Below are positions 11,151-56,705 of a DNA stretch of 57,275 bases, one piece after another. The DNA comes from an uncultured Spirochaetia bacterium. GTDB lineage: Bacteria; Spirochaetota; Spirochaetia; Sphaerochaetales; Sphaerochaetaceae. The notes under the pieces are model-generated. The model saw only the letters and a program-made list of their open reading frames with translations. It was not told where the DNA came from and did not search any database. How positions within the stretch are numbered: the first letter of the stretch is position 1; every line of letters starts with the position of its first letter. The stretch covers positions 1 through 57,275 of the forward strand of contig CAJOOY010000054.1 of assembly GCA_905236385.1 (NCBI GenBank). Direction: 5' to 3'. The translations under genes and the position numbers were made by a program.

Positions 11151-12281
11151 TTAGCTTTCTGAAAAATCCGTGTCCAGAACCATGTGAAGTTCGTACTCAG
11201 GGTACTCTTTGTGAATATCGTCATGAATATGGCGGTACAGCGCAGTTCTGTCATCTACAGAGAAATCAATCATTACATCAAATGTGATAGTTTTCTTCTG
11301 GATATCTGCGTAGAAGCCGTGAATCTGCATGACTCCGTCATGAGAAAGAGTTATCTTTCTTACATTTTTATAAATGGCATTTACTTCATCATCCTTGGTG
11401 TTCACAGAATAGATTCCTACAGCCGTAATAATCACACCATGCTTATCAAAAACTTTCTTTGATATATCTCTGGATAAAATGTCTATCTCATTTGCACTCA
11501 TGTCATCTCTCACTTCTACATGAACAGATGCCATGTATGAGTCCGGCCCGTAGTTGTTCAGAATCAGATCAAAGACTCCATGAACGCCTTCAATACCCTT
11601 AATTGTTTGCTTAATTCCAAGAGCCAACTCTTTGTCTGCCCTCTCTCCGAGTATCTGACTGAGGGTCTCGGAAATCATTTCAATACCGGCCTTGATGATA
11701 AAGATAGAGATGCCGGCAGCAACCCAAGCTTCAATGCTCAAATCAAAGAATATGTATACAAGGGCTGAAACAAGGGTGGCAGTTGAAAGAACTGCGTCCA
11801 TCAGTGCATCTTTTCCCGAGTCCTCAAGAGAGTCTGAATTAACCTCTTCTCCCTTCTTTCTTACGTAAAAACCCATAATAATCTTCACGGGAATGGCAAC
11901 TGAAATAATAACTATTGAAAGAACTGAGTAAGAAGGGGCTTCAGGGTTGATTATGTTCTTAACTGATTCTATGAGTGAATTTATACCTGCGTATGAGACA
12001 ATCACAGAAATGACCATGGCACTGAGGTACTCAATCCTGCCGTAGCCAAACGGGTGCTTTCTGTCTGGCTTTTTTCCTGCAAGCTTAGCTCCAACTATTG
12101 TTATAACGCTGGAAGCTGCATCACTTAAGTTATTAAGGGCGTCCATTGTAACGGCAATTGAGTTAGCCACAAGCCCAACAAAAGCCTTAAAAGAAGCGAG
12201 GAGTATATTTCCAAGTATGCCTATGATACTTGTCTTGACTATTATCTTCTCCCGATTAATCTCTTTGTTTTCCTTCATCAT
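11151..12281 (-). CDS. Cation diffusion facilitator (CDF) efflux transporter
   Basis: About 376 residues: six membrane helices followed by a cytoplasmic domain. The DALNNLSDAASS segment in helix 2 holds metal-site Asn/Asp residues, and KKPDRKHPFGYGRIEYLS is the conserved post-helix loop. The C-terminal region has the expected dimerisation fold and a short extra extension. It probably exports Zn, Mn or Fe. The ATG at 12281 is preferred over GTG 12287 because AGGGAG lies 6 nt before it; it overlaps the VTT-protein gene, so both form an operon. An 8-bp hairpin (11123-11146) lies after the stop. Confidence 0.85.
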   Translation of the reverse strand: MMKENKEINREKIIVKTSIIGILGNILLASFKAFVGLVANSIAVTMDALNNLSDAASSVITIVGAKLAGKKPDRKHPFGYGRIEYLSAMVISVIVSYAGINSLIESVKNIINPEAPSYSVLSIVIISVAIPVKIIMGFYVRKKGEEVNSDSLEDSGKDALMDAVLSTATLVSALVYIFFDLSIEAWVAAGISIFIIKAGIEMISETLSQILGERADKELALGIKQTIKGIEGVHGVFDLILNNYGPDSYMASVHVEVRDDMSANEIDILSRDISKKVFDKHGVIITAVGIYSVNTKDDEVNAIYKNVRKITLSHDGVMQIHGFYADIQKKTITFDVMIDFSVDDRTALYRHIHDDIHKEYPEYELHMVLDTDFSES

Positions 12282-12948
12282 CAACACTCCCTGAAGTTTT
12301 CTTTTTGGTATAGTACAACACCCAAAGCATGGATAGCCCTATAATCACAACCTCAATTACCGCAGTAATTATGGCCAACCTACCGTTACTGCTCAAAAAG
12401 CTGATGCCCATCATGGTGAACAGGATTATATTGTCAGTCATGCTGAGAACACTGACGCTCAGATACATGGGGTACTTTATCTTCTTGGCTCCTAGGTAAA
12501 GACTCACTACATCATAGGGAAGAATTTTTGCCAATCTAAGAATTAAGGTAAGCATGAACGGATGCTCACCTGCCAGAAGCGGGTTGTTCCTGATCTTTGG
12601 ATACTTCTCATTTATCTCAGCTATAGCGTTCTGTCCTCTTGTCCTACCGGCCATATATGGTATGCTGGCAGCCAGAGCTGTTCCCATAAAGTTAATAGCC
12701 AAGGCCCAACCCATGGGAAATATAAGAGCCGTTGTTGCATACAGGATTCCTGCGTAGACTACAACAGTCAGGCTTTTAACAGCAAAAAGAACAAGAATCC
12801 CAACTGCAGATAAAAAAGATGCTTCCGGAAAGATGGAAGCAATCTTTTCCGGCGTAATACTGCGTCTATTGATAAACAAAAATGTTGCAATTAAAGCCCA
12901 TATGGTAATAACTACAATTCTGTTAATCTTTTTTCTCTGACCGTTCAT
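12256..12948 (-). CDS. TVP38/TMEM64 (VTT/DedA-like) membrane protein
   Basis: A 230-residue protein with five to six membrane helices. The motif AGRTRGQNAIAEINEKYPKIRN, a loop between helices, and the FMLTLILRLAKILPYDVVS segment with conserved R and P residues are typical of the VTT domain, linked in other bacteria to lipid-carrier or phospholipid scrambling. A TAGAAT box ends 7 nt before the ATG and there is no ribosome site, so the mRNA may be leaderless. It is translationally coupled to the CDF gene. Confidence 0.82.
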   Translation of the reverse strand: MNGQRKKINRIVVITIWALIATFLFINRRSITPEKIASIFPEASFLSAVGILVLFAVKSLTVVVYAGILYATTALIFPMGWALAINFMGTALAASIPYMAGRTRGQNAIAEINEKYPKIRNNPLLAGEHPFMLTLILRLAKILPYDVVSLYLGAKKIKYPMYLSVSVLSMTDNIILFTMMGISFLSSNGRLAIITAVIEVVIIGLSMLWVLYYTKKKTSGSVDDEGKQRD

Positions 12949-17373: not shown

Positions 17374-17412
17374 GAGGCTGAAACCATTTAAGTTTCAGCC
17401 TCTCTTTTTTTG
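17374..17412 (+). terminator. Terminator of the rubrerythrin gene
   Basis: GAGGCTGAAAC and GTTTCAGCCTC form a perfect 11-bp stem with a 7-nt loop, followed by a T-run. The A-run on its other side could also serve the convergent DUF2188-like gene. Confidence 0.92.
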
Positions 17413-17685: not shown

Positions 17686-19551
17686 TCATTTTTTGTTTAG
17701 AAAGCTAATTGAATTATACCACTTTTCAAACCCTTGTGGGAAAGAAGTGAACCTTATCAGGCTCTTTGTGAACGGATCCAGTGGGCTCTTTGGTTTCAGG
17801 ACCTGGATTACCTTGCCGTACAGACGCTGACCGGAGATATCAAAGCGCATATCGTCAAAAGCCTTGAGCCTGGTGCGTGTAAGAATAATTGCCTCTGTGC
17901 GGCTGAGCCTGAGGACCTCTGCCGGGTAGACATCTGCACTAACAATCTTGTCACTTACTATCCTCATTCTTAGCTTCAGCGGATGCTGAGGCTTCCTAAG
18001 CTCTTCTCTTTCAGAAGTACCGAAGGTCTTGCCGTCCAGAGAGCGGACATCGTATATAGTAATAGGGGTCTTAAAGCCCTTAGGGAATATCTTTGTCTCC
18101 GAGGCCACTTCGACCTTACCTACAAGCTTCTCGTGGGTTGTTGGGGAGATGAAAATCTGATCTCCTACGGTGAAGCTCTCAATGCGCGAGCACATATTAA
18201 TTGCGTTTCCAATCACACCGTACTTTATGTGCCTCCTGCAACCTATGTTTCCTATAATCAGCTCGCCCGTGTTAATTCCTATTCCCATCCTAAGCGTCGG
18301 GTAGCCGTTCTCAAGGTTCCACTTGTTCACTTCTTCCATGGCCGCCTGCATGTCAATGGCTGCGCTGACGGCCTTATCCGCGTGGTCCGTAAGCTCTATG
18401 GGGGCCCCGAAGATGGCAAAAACCGAGTCTCCAACAAACTCAAGCACAGTGCCGTTGTTCTTCCTAACCGCCTCAACCATGGCGTCAAAATAGTGGGAGA
18501 GCATCTTCAATAGATCATCTGGCGCAAGAGACTCGGCAATGGCGGAAAAGCCCCTCAAGTCCGAAAGCAGGACCGTGAGCTCCATCTTCTTGCCCCCAAA
18601 ACGTGTCCCGCCCTTGGTGTCCACTATCTGGCGCGCTATCTCTTCAGACAGGTAGAGGCCAAATGTGTCAAAGAGCCTCTTGTTCCTCTTTTCCAGAATC
18701 TTGTTCTCTTCCTGGATACTGATGTAATCATCATCATCCTCTTCATCAAAAACCTTGACGCTGACACCCTCTTTCTCTTCCCCAAGCCCCATGAATGAGT
18801 TCTTCTCAAGGTACTCTATGGAGGCTTTGACGTTTTCCAGGTTTCCGCACTCAAGTGTCATGCATATGCTGTTTCTTCTCTTCTTAGGCAGGGCTCTGAA
18901 GTAGGTGTCCAAAACCTCCCAGTTGATTGTTCCAGTTCCCAGGCTCATGTGATCATCATAGTGGCCCATGTTATCCGAGAGGTGAATGTAGCCTATGTAA
19001 TCTTTAAGCTCTGAAAACCATGTTCTAAAGTTACTGGAGGAGCAGTTTGCGTGCCCCGTATCAAAACACACCCCTATTTTCGGATTGTCACAGATTTCCA
19101 TAAGGCTCTTCAGTGGACCGGGGTCAATATCCTGACAGTTCTCTATAAACAGATTCAAATCATATTTCTCAACTAGGCTATTGTAGAACTCCGCACACTG
19201 GCGTGCCCAGGCGCCCAAATAAGAACCTCTTAAAATAGAAAAACAGCTTGAGTGAAAGACTACATTTTTGGCTCCAAGACGCACAGCCTGTTCGCAGCTC
19301 TCTATACACCTCTTCTTTGAAAACTCAGCAAAGTCCTTATCTCCGCTGGCCGGGTTTATGTCTATAAAAGCCCCGTGAAGAGAGGTACACAGGTGTGTTG
19401 ATTTATACCAAGCCTCTGCTTCTTTAGACAGTTTTTTATCCGAAACGCAAGGAACTGCACTGAGTTCCAGAACCTCAAAAGACAGGCCTTTTTCCAGAGC
19501 AAAGGCTAGCCAATCCTCTCTATTTGTGTTTACTGGCTGAATCTGAATCAT
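17686..19551 (-). CDS. Sugar-isomerase-type TIM barrel fused to class III nucleotide cyclase and PilZ-like domain
   Basis: About 621 residues in three parts. Residues 1-255 are a xylose-isomerase/AP-endonuclease-2-like barrel with the metal ligands intact (HSSCF, FIENCQ, CFDTGHAN, HLSDNMGH, TLECG). Residues about 305-500 are a class III cyclase: metal Asp residues in LLSDLRGFS and EFVGDSVFAIFG, transition-state Asn/Arg in NMCSRIES. The base-specifying positions are Glu (EFVGD) and Gly (YGVIG), more like guanylyl than adenylyl cyclases. Residues about 510-610 look like a PilZ-type beta-barrel. The ATG at 19551 lies 6 nt from a TATAAT box. I know of no described protein with this fusion. Confidence 0.85.
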   Translation of the reverse strand: MIQIQPVNTNREDWLAFALEKGLSFEVLELSAVPCVSDKKLSKEAEAWYKSTHLCTSLHGAFIDINPASGDKDFAEFSKKRCIESCEQAVRLGAKNVVFHSSCFSILRGSYLGAWARQCAEFYNSLVEKYDLNLFIENCQDIDPGPLKSLMEICDNPKIGVCFDTGHANCSSSNFRTWFSELKDYIGYIHLSDNMGHYDDHMSLGTGTINWEVLDTYFRALPKKRRNSICMTLECGNLENVKASIEYLEKNSFMGLGEEKEGVSVKVFDEEDDDDYISIQEENKILEKRNKRLFDTFGLYLSEEIARQIVDTKGGTRFGGKKMELTVLLSDLRGFSAIAESLAPDDLLKMLSHYFDAMVEAVRKNNGTVLEFVGDSVFAIFGAPIELTDHADKAVSAAIDMQAAMEEVNKWNLENGYPTLRMGIGINTGELIIGNIGCRRHIKYGVIGNAINMCSRIESFTVGDQIFISPTTHEKLVGKVEVASETKIFPKGFKTPITIYDVRSLDGKTFGTSEREELRKPQHPLKLRMRIVSDKIVSADVYPAEVLRLSRTEAIILTRTRLKAFDDMRFDISGQRLYGKVIQVLKPKSPLDPFTKSLIRFTSFPQGFEKWYNSISFLNKK

Positions 19552-19557
19552 ATGGGA

Positions 19558-19587
19558 ATTATACACTTAATTGAAAAACTATCACAA
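19558..19587 (-). promoter_or_regulatory. Promoter of the barrel-cyclase gene, leaderless arrangement
   Basis: Minus strand TTGTGA (19587-19582), 18-nt spacer, TATAAT (19563-19558), then 6 nt (TCCCAT) to the ATG at 19551. Transcription should begin on or next to the start codon. Confidence 0.6.
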
Positions 19588-19628: not shown

Positions 19629-20216
19629 GTGGTGGCCTTGGTATATATTTTTAAGAAAATCTGGTTTCTGATTCTGCTTCTTGTTTTTTCAACCTATACC
19701 TATTTTGCCTCTCTTACCTCTTGGGTAATCTACCCTTTTCTCTTCAGATATTTCCGCTTTGCATGGTTTGTAGTAATCATTGGGATACTGGCCCACTTCA
19801 TCGGAGAAGCCATTCCGAGAAAATTCAACTTTGAGTCTTCATTCTTTGCTCCCCACAAATGGGAAAAGAACGGAAAAATCTACCAGGAAAAGTTTAAGAT
19901 TAAATCTTGGAAAGATGCCCTTATGGATATGAGCAAGGCTTCTGAGAAGGCCCAGTCAAAAGATGTTGGTCAGGATTTAAGCTCCCAGCACCTTTACACC
20001 CTGCTTCAGGAGACCTGCGTTGCTGAAACAGTACATATAATTCTTATGGTTGTGGGAATAAGTCTGCTTTTCATAATTGAATTTTCATACAACATCTTCT
20101 GGTTTCTGGCCTATGAGGTTTTCAACTCTCTGGACATAATCATCCAGAGGTTCAACAGACCACGCCTTGTAAGCATTTACAAAAGATCTCTTCGTATGGA
20201 GAAAGAGAAAGCATGA
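19629..20216 (+). CDS. Membrane acyltransferase-like protein (CrtO-type glycosyl acyltransferase family)
   Basis: Up to 195 residues with an N-terminal helix pair and one or two late helices. The motifs NGKIYQEKFKIKSWKDAL, LQETCVAETVHI and IIQRFNRPRLVSIY match the glycosyl-4,4'-diaponeurosporenoate acyltransferase family. No carotenoid genes are nearby, and the next gene is a diglyceride-type glycosyltransferase overlapping by 4 nt, so the pair more likely acts on a glycolipid. The start is uncertain: GTG 19629, GTG 19632 or TTG 19638, with GGGAG at 19623-19627. Confidence 0.7.
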   Translation: MVALVYIFKKIWFLILLLVFSTYTYFASLTSWVIYPFLFRYFRFAWFVVIIGILAHFIGEAIPRKFNFESSFFAPHKWEKNGKIYQEKFKIKSWKDALMDMSKASEKAQSKDVGQDLSSQHLYTLLQETCVAETVHIILMVVGISLLFIIEFSYNIFWFLAYEVFNSLDIIIQRFNRPRLVSIYKRSLRMEKEKA

Positions 20217-21304
20217 GAATTCTTTTTCTTACATGCAGCACAGGTGGAGGACACAACTCCGCTGCAAAAGCCCTAGCTGAAGAAGCTTCTGCAAGAGGCC
20301 ACAAATACATAATAAAAGACGCTCTAGATTTTCTTGGTCACCGAAGAAAAAGCATAATAAGCAAGGGCCATGTTTTTGCTTACAAGCACATGCCCAAACT
20401 CTACGGGCGTCTTTATGACAGAGTTGGTGAAGCTTCTACAAAACCCGTGTTTATTAGCATGCAACCCAGCATGTTTAGAATTAACAGGTATCTGAAAAAG
20501 CATAGTTTTGATGCTGTAGTCTGTGTCCATGTCTTTGCTGCCATGATGATGACCCATGCAAGGAGGCACTATAAACTAACACAAAAGCTCTACCTAGTGG
20601 CCACCGACTACTCATACACCCCGGGCTCTTGTTTAACTGTTCCAGACAGGTTCTTTGTCCCAATAGGCTTTACCAACAGCTTTGTAGCACACGGTATTTC
20701 TCAGGAGAAGATAGTTGAGACTGGCATACCTATTAAGCATGATTTCTTCATAAATACTACTCGTGAAGAGGCTAGGAAGAAGCTTGGTTTTGACAAAAAT
20801 GAAGTACTGATAGTCCTGAGCGCTGGTTCAATGGGCTGTGGAAACATGAGAAGTCTAGCCAAGATGCTTGCTTCAAAGCTTCAAAACTGCACTGTTGCGG
20901 TTCTCTGCGGTAGCAACAAACGCCTTTTCAGACAGCTTTCAGGCTACAACCGCATACACCCGATAGGTTTTACAAATGATGTTCCCTTGTACTTCAGAGC
21001 AGCCAATGTGATTGTCTCAAAGGCCGGAGGCCTCACAATCACGGAAGCCGCAATCTCCGGGACACCTCTGATAATAATGAACGCTGTTCAGGGCCTTGAA
21101 ACACACAATCTCAAATACTTTGAACATAACAGACTGGCCCGCAGTGCTGAGACACCCCAGCAGGTCTATCCTATGGTTTTACAGGCTCTTTCAGATACTG
21201 AATCTTCTCCGTTCACTGTCCTTAAAAAGAAGGCCACAAAGGAGCTCTTCCCGGATGAGGCATCCACAAAGATTCTGGATGTGGTGGAGAAAGAGGCCTT
21301 CTAA
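20213..21304 (+). CDS. MGDG synthase-like glycosyltransferase (processive diacylglycerol glycosyltransferase family)
   Basis: A 363-residue GT28-type enzyme. N-terminal LFLTCSTGGGHNSAAKALAE is the signature of MGDG synthase/UgtP-like enzymes, and the C-terminal nucleotide-sugar site KAGGLTITEAAISGTPLII is intact. It should transfer a hexose from a nucleotide sugar to diacylglycerol on the inner membrane. Spirochaete membranes are rich in monoglycosyl diglycerides, which fits. It overlaps the acyltransferase-like gene (ATGA). Confidence 0.9.
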   Translation: MRILFLTCSTGGGHNSAAKALAEEASARGHKYIIKDALDFLGHRRKSIISKGHVFAYKHMPKLYGRLYDRVGEASTKPVFISMQPSMFRINRYLKKHSFDAVVCVHVFAAMMMTHARRHYKLTQKLYLVATDYSYTPGSCLTVPDRFFVPIGFTNSFVAHGISQEKIVETGIPIKHDFFINTTREEARKKLGFDKNEVLIVLSAGSMGCGNMRSLAKMLASKLQNCTVAVLCGSNKRLFRQLSGYNRIHPIGFTNDVPLYFRAANVIVSKAGGLTITEAAISGTPLIIMNAVQGLETHNLKYFEHNRLARSAETPQQVYPMVLQALSDTESSPFTVLKKKATKELFPDEASTKILDVVEKEAF

Positions 21305-22305
21305 GCCCTTCTCTCTTCCAGAGCGGTCACCCCTGTTCTATACTTGTCTGACACCTCTTTTTTCAGAAGCAGAAGGCCGTGCATGTTTATACTGCCATCC
21401 GGGTTTCTTTCTGGAAGGACTGAGGTATCAAGACTTTCAAACCAGGACTCTTCCACGCACACCCCGTCATTATTCATACTGAGCTTTTTGGACGGTTCCC
21501 AGTAAAAATTGCTCTTACCCACTATATCAGCCAGGTTCTGGCTCTGGACTCCCAACAACTCAGGCTCGTCAAAGGTTTCCTTATCAGTCCTGAAGCTGAC
21601 CACTCCATCAGCCCTGTACTCAGTAACTGCGGAACCGTTTTCAGTATAGAAGCCTACATTGCACTCCTCATTGTTGAATGAGACACAGTTTTCAACCTTT
21701 ATGTCCGGGCAGCTGTTTGAATCTATTCCCTTTGCAAGGTTTTCAAATGAGATTGAGTTTATCAGTCTGTGTCCGCCCGGCAGATTTGAACCACCAAGCT
21801 TGAAACCGTTTCCATTGCCGGCCTGCATCTGGGGAGAGGGCTCAATTGAAAGAGTTCCGTTGTCATCACATGTAATGGCGGCGAGAGTGAATGAGGTAGG
21901 AGAACTTCCTTCCTTGACTCTCAGGTATCCGTTTCTGTAAGTGACGCAGTTTCTGACTGTCACGCTTCCAAGCTGTCCCATTGAAACTTTGGCAAACAGG
22001 TCCCAGCCATCATCCGCATTGTATGCAGAGACGCATTGGTCGAAGACATTTCCTTCTCCGAGGGTTATCTTTGCAGCAAACCCGTCCGCATCTGAGCGGA
22101 AAATGAGGTTGTAACTATGACCGCAGGCGCTGCCACCACTTGCAATCTGAAGCACTGGCTTTCTGCAGACAGCAGGCTGAGGTTTCCAGAGTTGAGCGTT
22201 CCATTCAGATGTCTTGTAGACTATGTTGGAGAAGACGGCATTGCATCCTCTTGCAACAGCAAGAGCGACATAGGCCTTTTCATTGTCCTGACAGAGCATG
22301 GGATC
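21301..22305 (-). pseudogene. Remnant of a PL9-type pectate lyase (5' lost, internal deletion)
   Basis: The frame from about 22305 down to the stop at 21301 encodes the C-terminal part of a right-handed beta-helix lyase: DADGFAAKITLGEGNVF and AYNADDGWDLFAK (calcium-binding Asp residues and catalytic-region Lys of PL9), then CVTYRNGY, NGNGFKLGG and GIDSNSCPDIKVENC. Upstream, a different accessory-type segment (MLCQDNEKAYV to SYNLIFRS) joins DADGF directly, so the middle of the catalytic domain appears to be missing. Beyond about 22305 the frame continues only as antisense of the GH3 fragment. No start or ribosome site belongs to it. Confidence 0.7.
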
Positions 22306-22656
22306 ATCAAGCTCATCATGACTTCCTACAATCTTCTCAACGGAACCCATACTTCCGAGCACAGAGGTCTGGTTGAGGACGTGCTGAGAAGCGAATTCGG
22401 CTTTGACGGCATAGTCATGACGGACTGGATAGTCGGTGGCATGGAGGCCTTCGGCAAGTACGGCTCCCCATCTTCCACCAAGATTGCCATGGCCGGTGGA
22501 AATGTCATGATGCCCGGAAGCGAACATGACTACACCACGCTGCTTCAGGATCTTGAGGGCGGTAAGATTTCCCGTGAACAGCTGGAGATAAACGCCAGCA
22601 AGATGTATACCTTGGCGAACAGTCTTGCAGTAAGCCATAAAACAAATAGAAGATGA
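22306..22656 (+). pseudogene. Remnant of a GH3 beta-glucosidase
   Basis: Plus-strand frame ending in TGA at 22656. It begins abruptly near IMTSYNLLNGTHTSEH and carries LRSEFGFDGIVMTDW, where the Asp is the GH3 nucleophile, then PGSEHDYTTLLQDL. Everything N-terminal is missing, including the sugar-binding residues of the first half of the barrel. It lies head-to-head with the pectate-lyase remnant, with the junction near 22300-22315. A normal terminator follows, so the 3' end is original. Confidence 0.75.
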
Positions 22657-44017: not shown

Positions 44018-45304
44018 TTACCCTATAGGCTTGATTATACTGTAAATTTCCTGAGCTCTCATCTCATCAAGACCTGCTCTTATAGAAAAGTCTTTCCATC
44101 CTGAGAGAGCAGATTTCACATCTGATATGGCATTTCTGATTTCCCTTGATGACAGGTTACCCTTCCTTGCACATTCCTCAAAATCCGAATCAGAAATCCG
44201 GGACCTCTTCCCGTTCACTGTCATCTGATGTCCTGACGTCCACAGCCCATTTGGATTATAGGCAAAACAGACATCGTATGCAGGAGAGAGAGTCCACTGT
44301 CCACGTCTGTCCATGAGGAAGGATATGTTCTTGGTATGGTCATCACAATTATATGCCAGAACATTGAAAACCATGCGCCTGAACAACTCCACACAGTCCT
44401 TATGGTGCACCCCAATCCTATTTAGAACTGAAAAAGCCTGTTCATAACTGTATTTGCCGGCCTGGTTGAAATCCATGTGGGCCATGGCACACAGACTCTG
44501 CATGTGGATTTTTTCTCCATCATCCTTTCTGTCAAAGCGCTTAGTCATGAAATGGGAATTCTTTCCGTCCTCAAGAAGCCTGCTCTCCATCATGTTTATC
44601 CCGGATGCCTTTGCCATCAGATAGTAGGCATATTCTATTCTGCCGAAATCCGCCCCATCCTCTTCTTCCCTATCTCTGTTTCCGGAGACTCCACTGAATT
44701 TTATTATCCAATGCTCAAAACCACTTCCTGCATCTATCTGACCGGAGCGGACCTCATTTGTTTTCGGATTCCATGCAATTACTGCCTTGGCTCTTGCTCC
44801 TCCTGCAGAGGTTCCTACACTGATAATTCTGGAGAGCCCGCTTTGAACCAGTTGTGTCTGCAGATTACTTCGCCTTCTGAGAATAATTGAAGCAAGTTCC
44901 ACCAGTTCAGAAACATTAAGAGCCTCATCAACACTGCCGGAGGATATGACAGGATAGTACTCCAGAGCACCCATTCCTCTTTTTCCTGTGTAACACAGTC
45001 TCTCAACTGCATTGAAACTTCCCGGAAGCCTTCCATGCTCTGAGAGCCAGACATCTATAAGTGTGTTTCCAAACTTATCCGGAAGAGAATCCGAGAGCAT
45101 GGCCGGAAGTCCATGGTATGTTTCGTATGAGAGGTTTGGGAATCTGTAGACCGAATTACTAAGAGGCATGGCAATAGGAGAAAGCTCTATACCACTTCTT
45201 AAAAAGGAAGGGTTATATTCAAACGAGGCAATTCTATCATCCTCATCAAGGGAGACAGCACCTATTGTGGTTCCCCATAGACGAACTTCGGCATTAGTCT
45301 TCAT
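44018..45304 (-). CDS. hipA: HipA-type serine/threonine kinase toxin
   Basis: 428 residues. N-terminal HipA_N domain (VRLWGTTIGAVSLDEDD, LSPIAMPLS), then the kinase: SVGTSAGGARAKAV as the P-loop-like segment with the phosphorylatable Ser, HWIIKFSG, DFGRIEYAYYLM, catalytic NVLAYNCDDHTKNISFLM and LSPAYDVCFAY. HipA-type toxins phosphorylate aminoacyl-tRNA synthetases. All kinase motifs look intact. It overlaps hipB by 11 nt. Confidence 0.93.
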   Translation of the reverse strand: MKTNAEVRLWGTTIGAVSLDEDDRIASFEYNPSFLRSGIELSPIAMPLSNSVYRFPNLSYETYHGLPAMLSDSLPDKFGNTLIDVWLSEHGRLPGSFNAVERLCYTGKRGMGALEYYPVISSGSVDEALNVSELVELASIILRRRSNLQTQLVQSGLSRIISVGTSAGGARAKAVIAWNPKTNEVRSGQIDAGSGFEHWIIKFSGVSGNRDREEEDGADFGRIEYAYYLMAKASGINMMESRLLEDGKNSHFMTKRFDRKDDGEKIHMQSLCAMAHMDFNQAGKYSYEQAFSVLNRIGVHHKDCVELFRRMVFNVLAYNCDDHTKNISFLMDRRGQWTLSPAYDVCFAYNPNGLWTSGHQMTVNGKRSRISDSDFEECARKGNLSSREIRNAISDVKSALSGWKDFSIRAGLDEMRAQEIYSIIKPIG

Positions 45305-49080: not shown

Positions 49081-52000
49081 TTATTCTGAAACTTCATCAT
49101 ACGGATTATTCCAGAGCTTAGAGAAAGGTTGATATACAGTCTTACCTGTTGCTCCGGTAGAATCTGTGTTAATGTAACCACCTGTATTGCTACAATGGAA
49201 ATAATATCCATCACTTGTTTTGAGCACACTTACATTATTTGCTTGTGCAATTGCATTTATAGCGGATAATCCTGTAATTTCCATTTCTGCCTTCGTCATA
49301 CCAGTATATGATGATTCATCCCCGACTCGTAAAACAATGTACTTACTCTGCTGACCTACAACACGATCTTCATAGACAAAGAAACTAAATGACGAATCTC
49401 CTATAACATAATAAAATCTACGATTTTGTTTCACTGTAGATTCTACTGACTGTGTACTAATTGCTGCAGCATTTTGAGTATTACTATAGATAGGAGCGTA
49501 GGCAACTATCATATCACCCACAGTCCCAGATGTCTCCAAATCTCTGACACAAGGATAAAGAGTCAATGTCCCCATATCATCAGTAACTTCCATGGAATCA
49601 TTATATCTTGTCCCAACTCCGTTTGTATCAGTAAACCAGCCCACAAAAGCATAAGATGTATCTGTAAGAGTTACAGTAGCTAGTCCACCTTGACTTGCAA
49701 ATGTTTTGTCAGATTCATAAGCCTTTGTACCAAGGTATTCATATGTATCAGATCCAATTTTAATAGCGCTTATATAACTACTTGTATTGCTAAATGTAAT
49801 TGTTGCACCTTTTGTCTTCCAAACTGCATACAAATTTGTTCCATCATCATTTGCTGTAAACGTTGTTACTGTAGCTTCAGCATCAAATTCTTTTGTTCTA
49901 TCTGTAGCATTACTTGTTGACCATCCGTCAATCTTTTGAGTATCTGTTTCAAAATCATCCCCCAAGTCTGATGCAGATGGAATAGTTATTGAAGAATACT
50001 CATCAAAAGCCTTGCTAACTGACACATTTGTTCCGTCTTCAAGACCAACTGTGTTAAATACAATCTCAAACTTAGGAGAATAAATAAATGCACCTGAGGA
50101 TTCAGTTTCATAGACATTCTCGCTGTATTTATACACAGAAGTTTCATCTTCTGTTGTTATAGTCAGCTTATATACGCGTTGAGCAGTAGAATCATTCAAG
50201 TCTTTGCTACTTGTTATTGTGTTACCATAGGTAACAAACATTCTGCACTCTGATTCTCCTATTGTAATACCATCATCAAAAGTGAAACTCTTAGCTGAAG
50301 TAGCTATCCATCCACCATAAAGTGTGCTTCCACCAAGATGACCATAACTAAAGTTAAGAGTAGCTTTAGCACCACCAACAAGACCAGTAAATGTGAAAGA
50401 TTCAGGCAGTTCAACGAACGCGAAGTTTGAACTACTATCAGCACAAGGCTCACTGAAAATAGTTACATCTCCAGTTTCTGTAACTAATTTAAGAAGATCA
50501 TTGATTGTATTGAATCCGTTATCCGTGCTTCTTCCTTTAACAATAAAATTTCCTCCATTCAGATTATTATCTCCTGAAGCACCAGAATAAACAAAGTTTT
50601 CGAAATATCCACCGTTGATAGTTAAATCGCCTTCTCCAGTGTGAGTAAGATTGTAGAAATAGGCTGCATTGATTTCACTATCAGTATTGCCACTGACAAC
50701 TGCAGTTCCCACTTCCAGAGTAGTTCCAGCAGAGGTAGCTGAAACTGAAAGTTCATAAGCATAAAGATTCCCAATATAACTGAAACTCGGTCCGGAAGCA
50801 TTCATCGGGTTTTCAATAGAAACAGAGCTTGCAGGAGTATATTCATCTCCTGTTTTCCCATTTGCAACAGCATTAGCTATAATATGGGAATTCTTAATGT
50901 TTATTTTATCTGCGTAAACATTTCCGCTGATATCTACAGTCAGATTTCCTTCCTTTCCTTTTATATCAACCTTGTCTGTAGCTGTGACAGCTCCTGTTTT
51001 AAACGGATCTGTGATTGTAGAATTTGAATTATCAATTGTCACATCACCATCTTCACCACTTGCTGTTATTGCTCCCGCTGTTCCGGAAGCATTTGTCATG
51101 CTGATATCTCCACCTGTTGATGTGACAGACGGAGCTGTTTCAGTTCCTGAGTCGAACTCTACATATGTAAGATCAATAACTTCTGTTACAGAGACATTTC
51201 CTCCTATGACTACATGTTTGTCTGCATTTCCTGTGGCATCAAGAGATACTGCACTTATGGTGCCCGCTGTCAGAAGCTCTCCCGTGGAAGAAACTTCTGA
51301 ATTGGCGATTGTTATCTCTCCAACAGTGGCAGTTATATCCGAAACTGCTCCCGTTGTCTTTGTCAAACTTATGTTTCCACCGGTTGAATTAAGAGTTGAT
51401 GCAACAAGTGTTGTAGAAACAAGACGTGAGTCTGTGAGAGAAATATTTCCTGAAGCCGTAACGTTACCCTGGAAGTAACTTAGATCACTACCGGTAACAG
51501 TTGCAACCGTAACATCTCCTTCGATCTTTCCGGCTGAAACAGTCAAATCTCCACTAAGGGTTACATCTCCAATTATGTAGGAACTTGTGACAGAGAGATC
51601 AGATTCGCTTCCTTCTGCTGCTGTGATATCTCCTACAAATCTACCTATCCCTTTGATTGTCAGATCAGCACCATTTGTAAGCTCTATGCTGTATTTTGAA
51701 GCAACATAATCATCACCAAAAACAATTATAATTGATTTATCAAGAACAACAGCCATGAATTCTTTTCCTGAATCATTATCTTCGCCAATCAGCTTGATCT
51801 CAGTATCATCTGACTCAAGAGAATCAACAGCCTCCTTCAGGCTTCCGTAGAAGTATGTATGCTCGCCCCTTGAGATAATCCAGAAACCCTTGTCAACGTT
51901 CTCAATCGTTCCGGTCGTGTCAACTATGGTTCCATAAGGGCTTGTGCCGTAGCTGGTCTCACCTTCTGTTACATCATTCACTGTGACGTATGAGACGCCT

Positions 52001-52572
52001 TCTCCTTCGACAACAAGACCTGCAGGTCCATACATCCTGACATCTTCAAGATAGTTTGCTGCAAAAAGCTTTGCTCCATCTGAAACACTGACTGGTCCGT
52101 TGACTGTTACACCTGCATGCAGAATTGCCTTGGAATCCGTTCCCTCAGCGCTTAAGACAGAAAGACTCTTGTCTGTACTGGTAAGCGACAGAGTTCCGTT
52201 TGTAACGGAAAGGTCTGCTCCTTCAAGAACTTTGACTGCACTGTCCTTGACATCAAAGAACTTAAACTCATGTCCACCGAGATTCAGGATTACAGAGACA
52301 CCGGACGGTATTACTACCGGTCTGCTTGCTGCATCCCCTATCAGTTTTATGGTCCCTTCTTCTACCGACTCCTTTATTGCCTTGATGGCATCTGAGAGAC
52401 TGTCGTAGTACTTTCCGTTGTACTCAAAGGCGCCATTTGTCTCAAGAATCTCTGTGTATGCATAGTCTTTATTCTCTGTTGTTATTACACCACTGTCACA
52501 GGAGACAAGGGTGCAGAACAAAAGCATGGTTGCAATAATAGCTATTATGATTGTTTTGATTTTGTTATTCAT
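49081..52572 (-). CDS. Large surface lipoprotein with beta-helix repeats and InlB-type repeat
   Basis: 1163 residues. Signal peptide with lipobox LVSC (Cys25). Two similar N-terminal modules (YYDSLSDAIKAIKE...GTIKLIGD and YFYGSLKEAVDSLES...EIKLIGED) are followed by a long Ser/Thr/Gly-rich beta-helix region (about 300-690: GDVTLSGDLTVS, GGNISLTKTTG, GGDISMTNASG, GDLTINGGYFENF). A Listeria-Bacteroides (InlB B-type) repeat with GWSTSNATDRTKEF...ANDDGTNLYAVWK lies near 890-960. The product is probably exposed at the cell surface as an adhesin. It follows the outer-membrane barrel gene by 18 nt and shares its promoter with a 10-G tract. Confidence 0.85.
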   Translation of the reverse strand: MNNKIKTIIIAIIATMLLFCTLVSCDSGVITTENKDYAYTEILETNGAFEYNGKYYDSLSDAIKAIKESVEEGTIKLIGDAASRPVVIPSGVSVILNLGGHEFKFFDVKDSAVKVLEGADLSVTNGTLSLTSTDKSLSVLSAEGTDSKAILHAGVTVNGPVSVSDGAKLFAANYLEDVRMYGPAGLVVEGEGVSYVTVNDVTEGETSYGTSPYGTIVDTTGTIENVDKGFWIISRGEHTYFYGSLKEAVDSLESDDTEIKLIGEDNDSGKEFMAVVLDKSIIIVFGDDYVASKYSIELTNGADLTIKGIGRFVGDITAAEGSESDLSVTSSYIIGDVTLSGDLTVSAGKIEGDVTVATVTGSDLSYFQGNVTASGNISLTDSRLVSTTLVASTLNSTGGNISLTKTTGAVSDITATVGEITIANSEVSSTGELLTAGTISAVSLDATGNADKHVVIGGNVSVTEVIDLTYVEFDSGTETAPSVTSTGGDISMTNASGTAGAITASGEDGDVTIDNSNSTITDPFKTGAVTATDKVDIKGKEGNLTVDISGNVYADKINIKNSHIIANAVANGKTGDEYTPASSVSIENPMNASGPSFSYIGNLYAYELSVSATSAGTTLEVGTAVVSGNTDSEINAAYFYNLTHTGEGDLTINGGYFENFVYSGASGDNNLNGGNFIVKGRSTDNGFNTINDLLKLVTETGDVTIFSEPCADSSSNFAFVELPESFTFTGLVGGAKATLNFSYGHLGGSTLYGGWIATSAKSFTFDDGITIGESECRMFVTYGNTITSSKDLNDSTAQRVYKLTITTEDETSVYKYSENVYETESSGAFIYSPKFEIVFNTVGLEDGTNVSVSKAFDEYSSITIPSASDLGDDFETDTQKIDGWSTSNATDRTKEFDAEATVTTFTANDDGTNLYAVWKTKGATITFSNTSSYISAIKIGSDTYEYLGTKAYESDKTFASQGGLATVTLTDTSYAFVGWFTDTNGVGTRYNDSMEVTDDMGTLTLYPCVRDLETSGTVGDMIVAYAPIYSNTQNAAAISTQSVESTVKQNRRFYYVIGDSSFSFFVYEDRVVGQQSKYIVLRVGDESSYTGMTKAEMEITGLSAINAIAQANNVSVLKTSDGYYFHCSNTGGYINTDSTGATGKTVYQPFSKLWNNPYDEVSE

Positions 52573-55264: not shown

Positions 55265-56671
55265 TCATCTCTTGTCTGCTGGAACACTCAGTCCCGCAAC
55301 ATTGACCTGATCAACTATCAGCTTCTTTACTTCGTTGGGTATGAATCCCAGGGCATACAACGGATATGTAGCATAGCCTTCACCACCACCTACATTGGCG
55401 TCTGCAATCTTTATTGCAGGATGAAATCCGTATTTTCCGGGATTTGCCAAAACATACTTCATGCTGGTCGCTTTTCTGTTTGAAGCTTTGCATTCAACAA
55501 TGATTACCTTGCTATCCTTCTCCATCAGGAAATCAAGCTCCGGTGAGCCACTCGGTGCATGGAAGTAATACAGATTAATTCCTTCAGTGGCAAAGGCCGA
55601 TGCAGCCATGTTCTCAGCAATGGCTCCCTTGTATGCACCGAGATTACCCGAAAGAATTGAAGAAGGGACATCATCCGACATCTGGGATATCAGAAGTCCT
55701 GTATCAGCAGAGTAGACCTTGAATTCAGTTGATATTTTCTGCCCATCAAGAGGACAGACAAGTTCTCTGGTATTATAGGCTTTTACGACAAGGCCCACGT
55801 CTTCAAGATACTGCAGTCCATCGGCTTTTTCCGGCGAGTGTCCTTTCACATCCACAAGGCTGTACTGGAACTTCTTGTACTCTTTAGACAGCTGTGCCGG
55901 AAGCGAAGAGAGACAGGCTTCAGCCCTGAGCTTCAGAGTCTCATTAAGCTTGACGTTTCCTTTCTCATCAATATATCTTCCAAAATCATCCTTGATGGAC
56001 TGGATTATTCCTTTCTGAACATGACGAACAGCATTCAGGTCATGCGTGGCAAAAAATACGTTGCAGGCCTCAGGCATCCCTCCGACAATCAGATACTGCA
56101 GATACAGTTGTCGAAATGCCTCATGGACGCTCGACTCTACCATCTTCCCTGATTCCAATGAATCACGAACATAATCAAGAACACTTTTGTCCACTCCAAC
56201 ATTCTTCAGGAATTCCTTGAAAGAAAGAGGATACATGGTTATTTGCTCCTCATATCCCGCAGGCACGCCACGAGAATAGGGTGTCCTGAACCCTTTCACA
56301 CCGAGAAAACTTCCGGTCGCAATGACATCAAACCGTCCGTCCAAGTCCCAGTACTTGAGGGAACTCCTTGCATCTGGACAATCCTGGATTTCATCTAGAA
56401 TAAGAAGCGTGCTTCCGGCGACAAACCGTGCCTCAGGCACGGATGCAGTTATGGAGATTACCATTTGATTGACATCAAAGTTGCCCGAAAACGCCTTGTG
56501 GATTGTCTTGTTTGATCTGAGATCAAGATAAACAACATTCGGATAGAATGCTTTTCCGAACTCTTTGACTATGAAGGTCTTTCCCACCTGTCTCAAACCT
56601 TTTATTATTAGAGGATGATGGGGGCGCTCCTTCCATTCTTTCAAGTCATTCCAAATGGCCCTATTAAGCAT
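55265..56671 (-). CDS. AAA+ ATPase with DUF4143 domain
   Basis: About 468 residues. N-terminal AAA_14 domain: KGLRQVGKTFIVKEF (Walker A), LLILDEIQDCPDARSSLKYW (Walker B), ATGSFLGVKGF (sensor 1), SRGVPAGYEEQITMYPLSFKEFL. C-terminal DUF4143 nuclease-like domain: YSADTGLL, ELDFLMEKDSKVIIVECKAS. These are numerous in gut bacteria; function is unknown, with defence or mobility proposed. The ATG at 56671 follows GGAGG by 9 nt. Three spaced repeats lie directly upstream. Confidence 0.9.
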   Translation of the reverse strand: MLNRAIWNDLKEWKERPHHPLIIKGLRQVGKTFIVKEFGKAFYPNVVYLDLRSNKTIHKAFSGNFDVNQMVISITASVPEARFVAGSTLLILDEIQDCPDARSSLKYWDLDGRFDVIATGSFLGVKGFRTPYSRGVPAGYEEQITMYPLSFKEFLKNVGVDKSVLDYVRDSLESGKMVESSVHEAFRQLYLQYLIVGGMPEACNVFFATHDLNAVRHVQKGIIQSIKDDFGRYIDEKGNVKLNETLKLRAEACLSSLPAQLSKEYKKFQYSLVDVKGHSPEKADGLQYLEDVGLVVKAYNTRELVCPLDGQKISTEFKVYSADTGLLISQMSDDVPSSILSGNLGAYKGAIAENMAASAFATEGINLYYFHAPSGSPELDFLMEKDSKVIIVECKASNRKATSMKYVLANPGKYGFHPAIKIADANVGGGEGYATYPLYALGFIPNEVKKLIVDQVNVAGLSVPADKR

Positions 56672-56705
56672 AACATTTGCCTCCAAAAAGAATTATAAAT
56701 TATAA

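Follow-up and report, generated by a model that had tools for sequence, protein, structure and literature searches.

A single gene in the 57,275-nucleotide stretch of Sphaerochaetaceae DNA analysed here (the window) encodes an N-terminal (β/α)8 barrel, a class III nucleotide cyclase and a C-terminal domain on one chain, as the sequence-only reading had first noted. With slightly better than even confidence, we read the product as a cytosolic metabolite-sensing guanylyl cyclase, whose tail would act as an internal regulator and whose cGMP would be read by a separate cyclic-nucleotide-binding (cNMP) protein. The fusion appears to be a rare spirochaete protein presenting a new sensor combination for a cyclase. 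Bacterial cGMP is a little-studied messenger with few worked examples, and these small spirochaete genomes hold a candidate complete cGMP circuit that combines a metal-barrel input with a receptor candidate whose cassette tracks the cyclase.

Organization of the fusion gene

The gene occupies positions 17686–19551 of the minus strand and encodes 621 residues from an ATG at 19551. The open frame extends over 17686–19566 on the same strand without internal stops and would give 626 residues if the GTG at 19566 were the start; residue numbers used here refer to this GTG frame, in which the ATG is residue 6 (numbering from the ATG is lower by 5). The ATG is the likelier start, because a promoter-like TTGTGA-18-TATAAT match (19558–19587, minus strand) ends 6 nt ahead of it and overlaps the GTG, and because TATAAT lies 6–8 nt upstream of the same ATG in the window's genome and in two genomes of its genus (G001 and G002). 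In G002 TATAAT is kept while the remaining upstream DNA differs. The position of this element suggests a leaderless mRNA in the three genomes, and an AGGAG-like site takes its place in G131, where the fusion gene lies within an operon. The terminator-like hairpin at 17374–17402 (minus strand), 3' of the fusion gene, could also be used by the convergent rubrerythrin gene.

All domains are encoded on the minus strand. The barrel (18781–19551) matches AP_endonuc_2 (PF01261) over residues 48–255 with 82.4 bits against a cut-off of 31.1, and the Cya2-like cyclase (18043–18582) matches Guanylate_cyc (PF00211) over residues 329–505 with 87.8 bits against 21.9. Between them lies a linker (18583–18780) with a predicted helix at residues 283–305 and the transducer-element motif FGLYLSEEIAR at about residues 302–312. 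No Pfam match covers residues 512–626, which belong to the C-terminal domain (17689–18042). A structure model of the entire protein was of poor quality (pLDDT 62); the structural comparisons below use its barrel part and a separate model of the C-terminal domain.

A divergent pair at 19629–21304, comprising a CrtO-like acyltransferase (PF18927) and a diglucosyl-diacylglycerol-synthase-like glycosyltransferase, adjoins the cyclase gene here and in G002 (contig L035) and not in G001. An operon of the fusion gene with these glycolipid genes was rejected on account of the divergent orientation and the missing adjacency in G001. Further along the window, positions 22117–22656 hold a glycoside hydrolase family 3 remnant covering only positions 210–315 of the PF00933 profile, antisense to the start of a β-helix lyase-like ORF (21301–22638); this is likely a decayed family 3 gene. 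Other features are a HipA-like toxin kinase with Couple_hipA and HipA_C domains (44018–45304), an ORF of 1163 residues with no Pfam match (49081–52572) and an AAA_14/DUF4143 ATPase (55265–56686).

Occurrence of the fusion

Three other Sphaerochaetaceae genomes also encode the fusion as one ORF, namely G001 (77% identity), G002 (60%) and G131 (44%, another genus), and two of these three are also found on public contigs (L034 and L035, from Spirochaetales UBA1265 and Sphaerochaetaceae RUI458). An assembly or frame error is therefore ruled out. A class III cyclase was detected in only 4 of 139 Sphaerochaetaceae genomes, spanning two genera, each time as a barrel fusion and never split; a search for separate barrel and cyclase genes in close relatives thus left the original claim of a fusion standing. 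In the barrel tree the four fused barrels cluster together (support 100/97, several other rows being long and unsure), which fits a single fusion event. No additional fusion appeared among the matches listed for a sample of genomes, 394 from the class and 392 from the phylum, with at most three candidates scored per genome, and no plasmid-borne record covered 80% of the fusion protein. A literature search reaching mostly papers outside subscription journals found none describing a barrel-cyclase fusion.

The cyclase and its predicted product

The cyclase is closest to the guanylyl cyclase Cya2, as judged by alignment to PDB 2w01. The metal-binding aspartates D336 and D380 and the transition-state residues N457 and R461 are invariant in the four homologs, which bears out the earlier claim of a catalytically complete cyclase. 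The base-specifying pair E376/G450 is likewise invariant and coincides with the Cya2 pair, so that the guanylyl type proposed for these residues from the sequence also holds. Among 33 spirochaete cyclases compared, Glu/Gly occurs in the four fusions and in the GAF-like L123, and Lys/Thr or Lys/Ser in the other 28. All three fusions from the window's genus have an FGxY transducer element ahead of the cyclase (FGHF in G002), and G131 has ERYLS there; the corresponding FGRY motif is named in work on Cya2 (PMC5995499).

The sequence-only reading had left the product as cGMP or cAMP. The first is favoured by the E376/G450 pair, and the cyclase most likely makes cGMP from GTP. That the product is instead cAMP despite this pair, within the same sensor layout, we consider unlikely, even though cAMP is the usual product of bacterial class III cyclases and the RSA of the cNMP cassette described below is shared with the cAMP-binding CRP. 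In Cya2 the glutamate selects GTP, and the single change E488K yields an adenylyl cyclase (PMC5995499); the adenylyl pair, moreover, belongs to the other spirochaete cyclases and not to the fusions.

The C-terminal domain and the cyclase-tail module

Modelled alone from the four sequences, the tail forms a six-stranded barrel with a helix (pLDDT 85). PilZ chains top both fold searches with this model, with a VIA Z of 10.9 over 106 residues (rmsd 3.5) and the leading Foldseek rows, and on this model the domain is a PilZ fold, although the tail has no match to Pfam PilZ (PF07238). It had been proposed as a PilZ-like nucleotide sensor; the fold stands, and sensing of c-di-GMP appears unlikely. 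The (D/N)xSxxG c-di-GMP motif is absent from all four homologs, and RxxxR is found in the tail of L003 only, its second arginine being invariant. Neither GGDEF nor Pfam PilZ matches were detected in the window's genome, G001 or G002, whereas G131 has nine GGDEF matches. A c-di-GMP-sensing role was thus rejected for the window's genus, given the missing DxSxxG and the three of four genomes with no detectable GGDEF. The tail also diverges fast, being shortened in G131 and only 21% identical to it.

In six genomes of another Spirochaetota family, a Glu/Gly cyclase followed by a homologous tail (hhalign probability 95.7%, E 1e-8) stands behind a dCache sensor; the tail profile of these dCache proteins matched nothing in the PDB. 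The cyclase and tail therefore constitute a module, and since this module follows a dCache sensor elsewhere, the barrel holds the sensor position, in support of the sensory role first suggested for it.

The barrel and its metal site

Residues H64, H105, E142, D169, H172, H195, D204, H206 and E239 occupy the nine positions of the endonuclease IV three-zinc site, which we take to be H69, H109, E145, D179, H182, H216, D229, H231 and E261 in the numbering of the E. coli enzyme. The nine match endonuclease IV in order and local motif in the alignments, with E239, which falls outside the stretch aligned to solved chains, placed through the family alignment. All nine are invariant in the four homologs, against 94 invariant positions among the 255 of the barrel (chance about 1e-4). 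The sequence-only reading had described a sugar-isomerase barrel retaining all its metal ligands. The ligands are indeed complete, more being present than a sugar isomerase needs, and the barrel is of the AP_endonuc_2 type. The isomerase label is too narrow for this endonuclease IV/CbiR site, and given that site a sugar or inositol-like ligand is not specially indicated.

The best NCBIfam matches of the barrel are CbiR and deoxyribonuclease IV models, both well under their cut-offs: 48.8 bits against 105 for the CbiR equivalog NF041277 and 29.7 bits against 129.65 for endonuclease IV TIGR00587. Membership in either family was rejected on these scores. The nearest solved structures are MJ1311 (3wqo; VIA Z 20.8 over 238 residues, rmsd 3.4) and TTHB071 (3ayt/3ayv), and the nearest by sequence is M. 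tuberculosis endonuclease IV. The full ligand set is not general to the superfamily, since in the same alignment L015, a different AP_endonuc_2 barrel from this family, retains just E142, D169, H172, H195 and E239. Nor is the site peculiar to the fusion, because all nine ligands also occur in standalone barrels that have no cyclase gene next to them; two of these barrels adjoin a gene that we take, from its translation, to encode phenylalanyl-tRNA synthetase beta.

Because the barrel carries a full set of catalytic metal ligands, an enzyme suits it as well as a sensor. The fusion might then be bifunctional in the manner of GGDEF-EAL proteins, with the cyclase making cGMP and an active metal phosphoesterase removing cGMP or a linked phosphodiester. 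The invariance of the nine ligand positions, the profile matches to deoxyribonuclease IV and to CbiR (a phosphodiesterase) and a barrel conservation nearly that of the cyclase (75, 66 and 47% identity to G001, G002 and G131, against 88, 70 and 50%) all agree with such an arrangement. It is nevertheless improbable in our view: we know of no endonuclease IV-fold enzyme that cleaves 3',5'-cyclic nucleotides, the nine ligands are also found in standalone proteins with no cyclase alongside, and in the other family a pure sensor replaces the barrel before the same cyclase module. We hold it very unlikely that the barrel is a multi-metal phosphodiesterase degrading the cyclic nucleotide of the attached cyclase, or a linked second signal; if so, this would be the first one-chain maker and breaker of a cyclic mononucleotide on the endonuclease IV fold.

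No more probable than the bifunctional enzyme is a barrel that dispenses with an organic ligand and acts as a metal sensor, in which loading of the site with zinc, iron or manganese would set cyclase activity. The full ligand set has been kept even though the barrel elsewhere has diverged to 47% identity, as a metal sensor would have it, but no link of the fusion gene to metal regulation was found, and the cation-efflux gene at 11151–12287 lies about 5 kb away, outside any operon with the fusion gene.

A candidate cGMP receptor

Each genome carrying the fusion also encodes a cNMP-binding protein of about 150 residues, in which PF00027 is the only Pfam domain in those scanned. Its gene lies apart from the cyclase gene in three carriers, and in G131 the genes for GDPD (glycerophosphodiesterase), the cNMP protein and the cyclase follow one another on the same strand with gaps of 8–9 bp. 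In the assembly of G001 an in-frame TAG interrupts the cNMP gene (L120, 1147–1710) downstream of the cassette. The canonical phosphate cassette FGExGL..RSA is present in the cNMP proteins of all four carriers and of one non-carrier, G029, in whose genome (88% complete) no cyclase was detected. By comparison, the cassette is changed to VGExEL..RIA or close to it in 10 of 11 homologs from genomes lacking the cyclase. Cassette type and cyclase presence are associated (Fisher p 0.004, inflated by shared descent), and in the cNMP tree the two cassette sets are separated with support 100/100, the carrier label needing only two changes. The association is thus partly explained by shared descent. The proteins with the VGExEL..RIA cassette from cyclase-lacking relatives (L157–L166) have possibly lost cyclic-nucleotide binding. 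On these sequence features the protein of about 150 residues is a candidate receptor for cGMP.

A Pycsar-like defence system, in which the cyclase would supply cCMP or cUMP to a cNMP-binding effector, is highly improbable: the PADLOC Pycsar cyclase models do match the fusion cyclase (87 bits) and the PADLOC model of a Pycsar TIR effector aligns with the binding domain of the cNMP protein, but these matches lie in the cyclase and cNMP domains that the two systems have in common, the cNMP protein carries PF00027 alone with neither a TIR nor a membrane effector domain, and the base residues of the cyclase are of the guanylyl type.

Proposed mechanism

A guanylyl cyclase that senses a metabolite or a metal and signals to a cNMP receptor accounts for these observations with the fewest assumptions. 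In the preferred, metabolite-sensing form, the multi-metal site would bind a small ligand (probably a metabolite that is phosphorylated or a phosphodiester), and the barrel would change in response. The helical linker and the cyclase transducer element would relay this change to the class III cyclase, which would act as a homodimer and convert GTP to cGMP. In this scheme the substrate, the barrel ligand, its coupling to the cyclase, the role of the tail and the receptor assignment are inferences from sequence. The PilZ-fold tail would set cyclase activity as an internal regulator rather than as a c-di-GMP sensor, and the cGMP produced would be read by the single-domain cNMP protein.

Comparison with known systems

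The fusion resembles Synechocystis Cya2 (PDB 2w01; PMC5995499) in its cyclase, which is about 41% identical with the same Glu/Gly pair and an FGxY transducer element, and in the 118–119 or so residues that follow the cyclase in both proteins. Unlike the fusion, with its predicted cytosolic barrel, Cya2 is anchored in the membrane and carries an extracellular CHASE2 sensor. The 118-residue C-terminal extension of Cya2 raises its activity, and as of 2018 its structure had yet to be characterized (PMC5995499); the PilZ fold modelled for the tail provides a testable idea for it. The dCache-cyclase proteins (L188–L193) share the Glu/Gly cyclase (44–48% identity) and the homologous C-terminal domain, and carry a membrane-bound dCache sensor where the fusion has the barrel.

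For the barrel itself, the cobamide phosphodiesterase CbiR and endonuclease IV (Nfo) are alike in fold and metal-site residues, but they are standalone enzymes, and no cobamide genes and no DNA-repair context were seen in the part of the neighbouring ORFs that was scanned. MJ1311 and TTHB071 agree with it in ligand positions over the stretch that aligns and are standalone proteins with function unassigned, whereas the fusion barrel is joined to a cyclase. The closest pathway is the XC_0250/XC_0249 cGMP pathway of Xanthomonas campestris (PMC3770947), which likewise pairs a class III guanylyl cyclase with a cNMP-binding receptor. There, however, the cyclase is fused to TPR repeats, with no barrel, and the receptor to GGDEF, whereas in the window's genome no GGDEF was detected and the candidate receptor is a single-domain protein.
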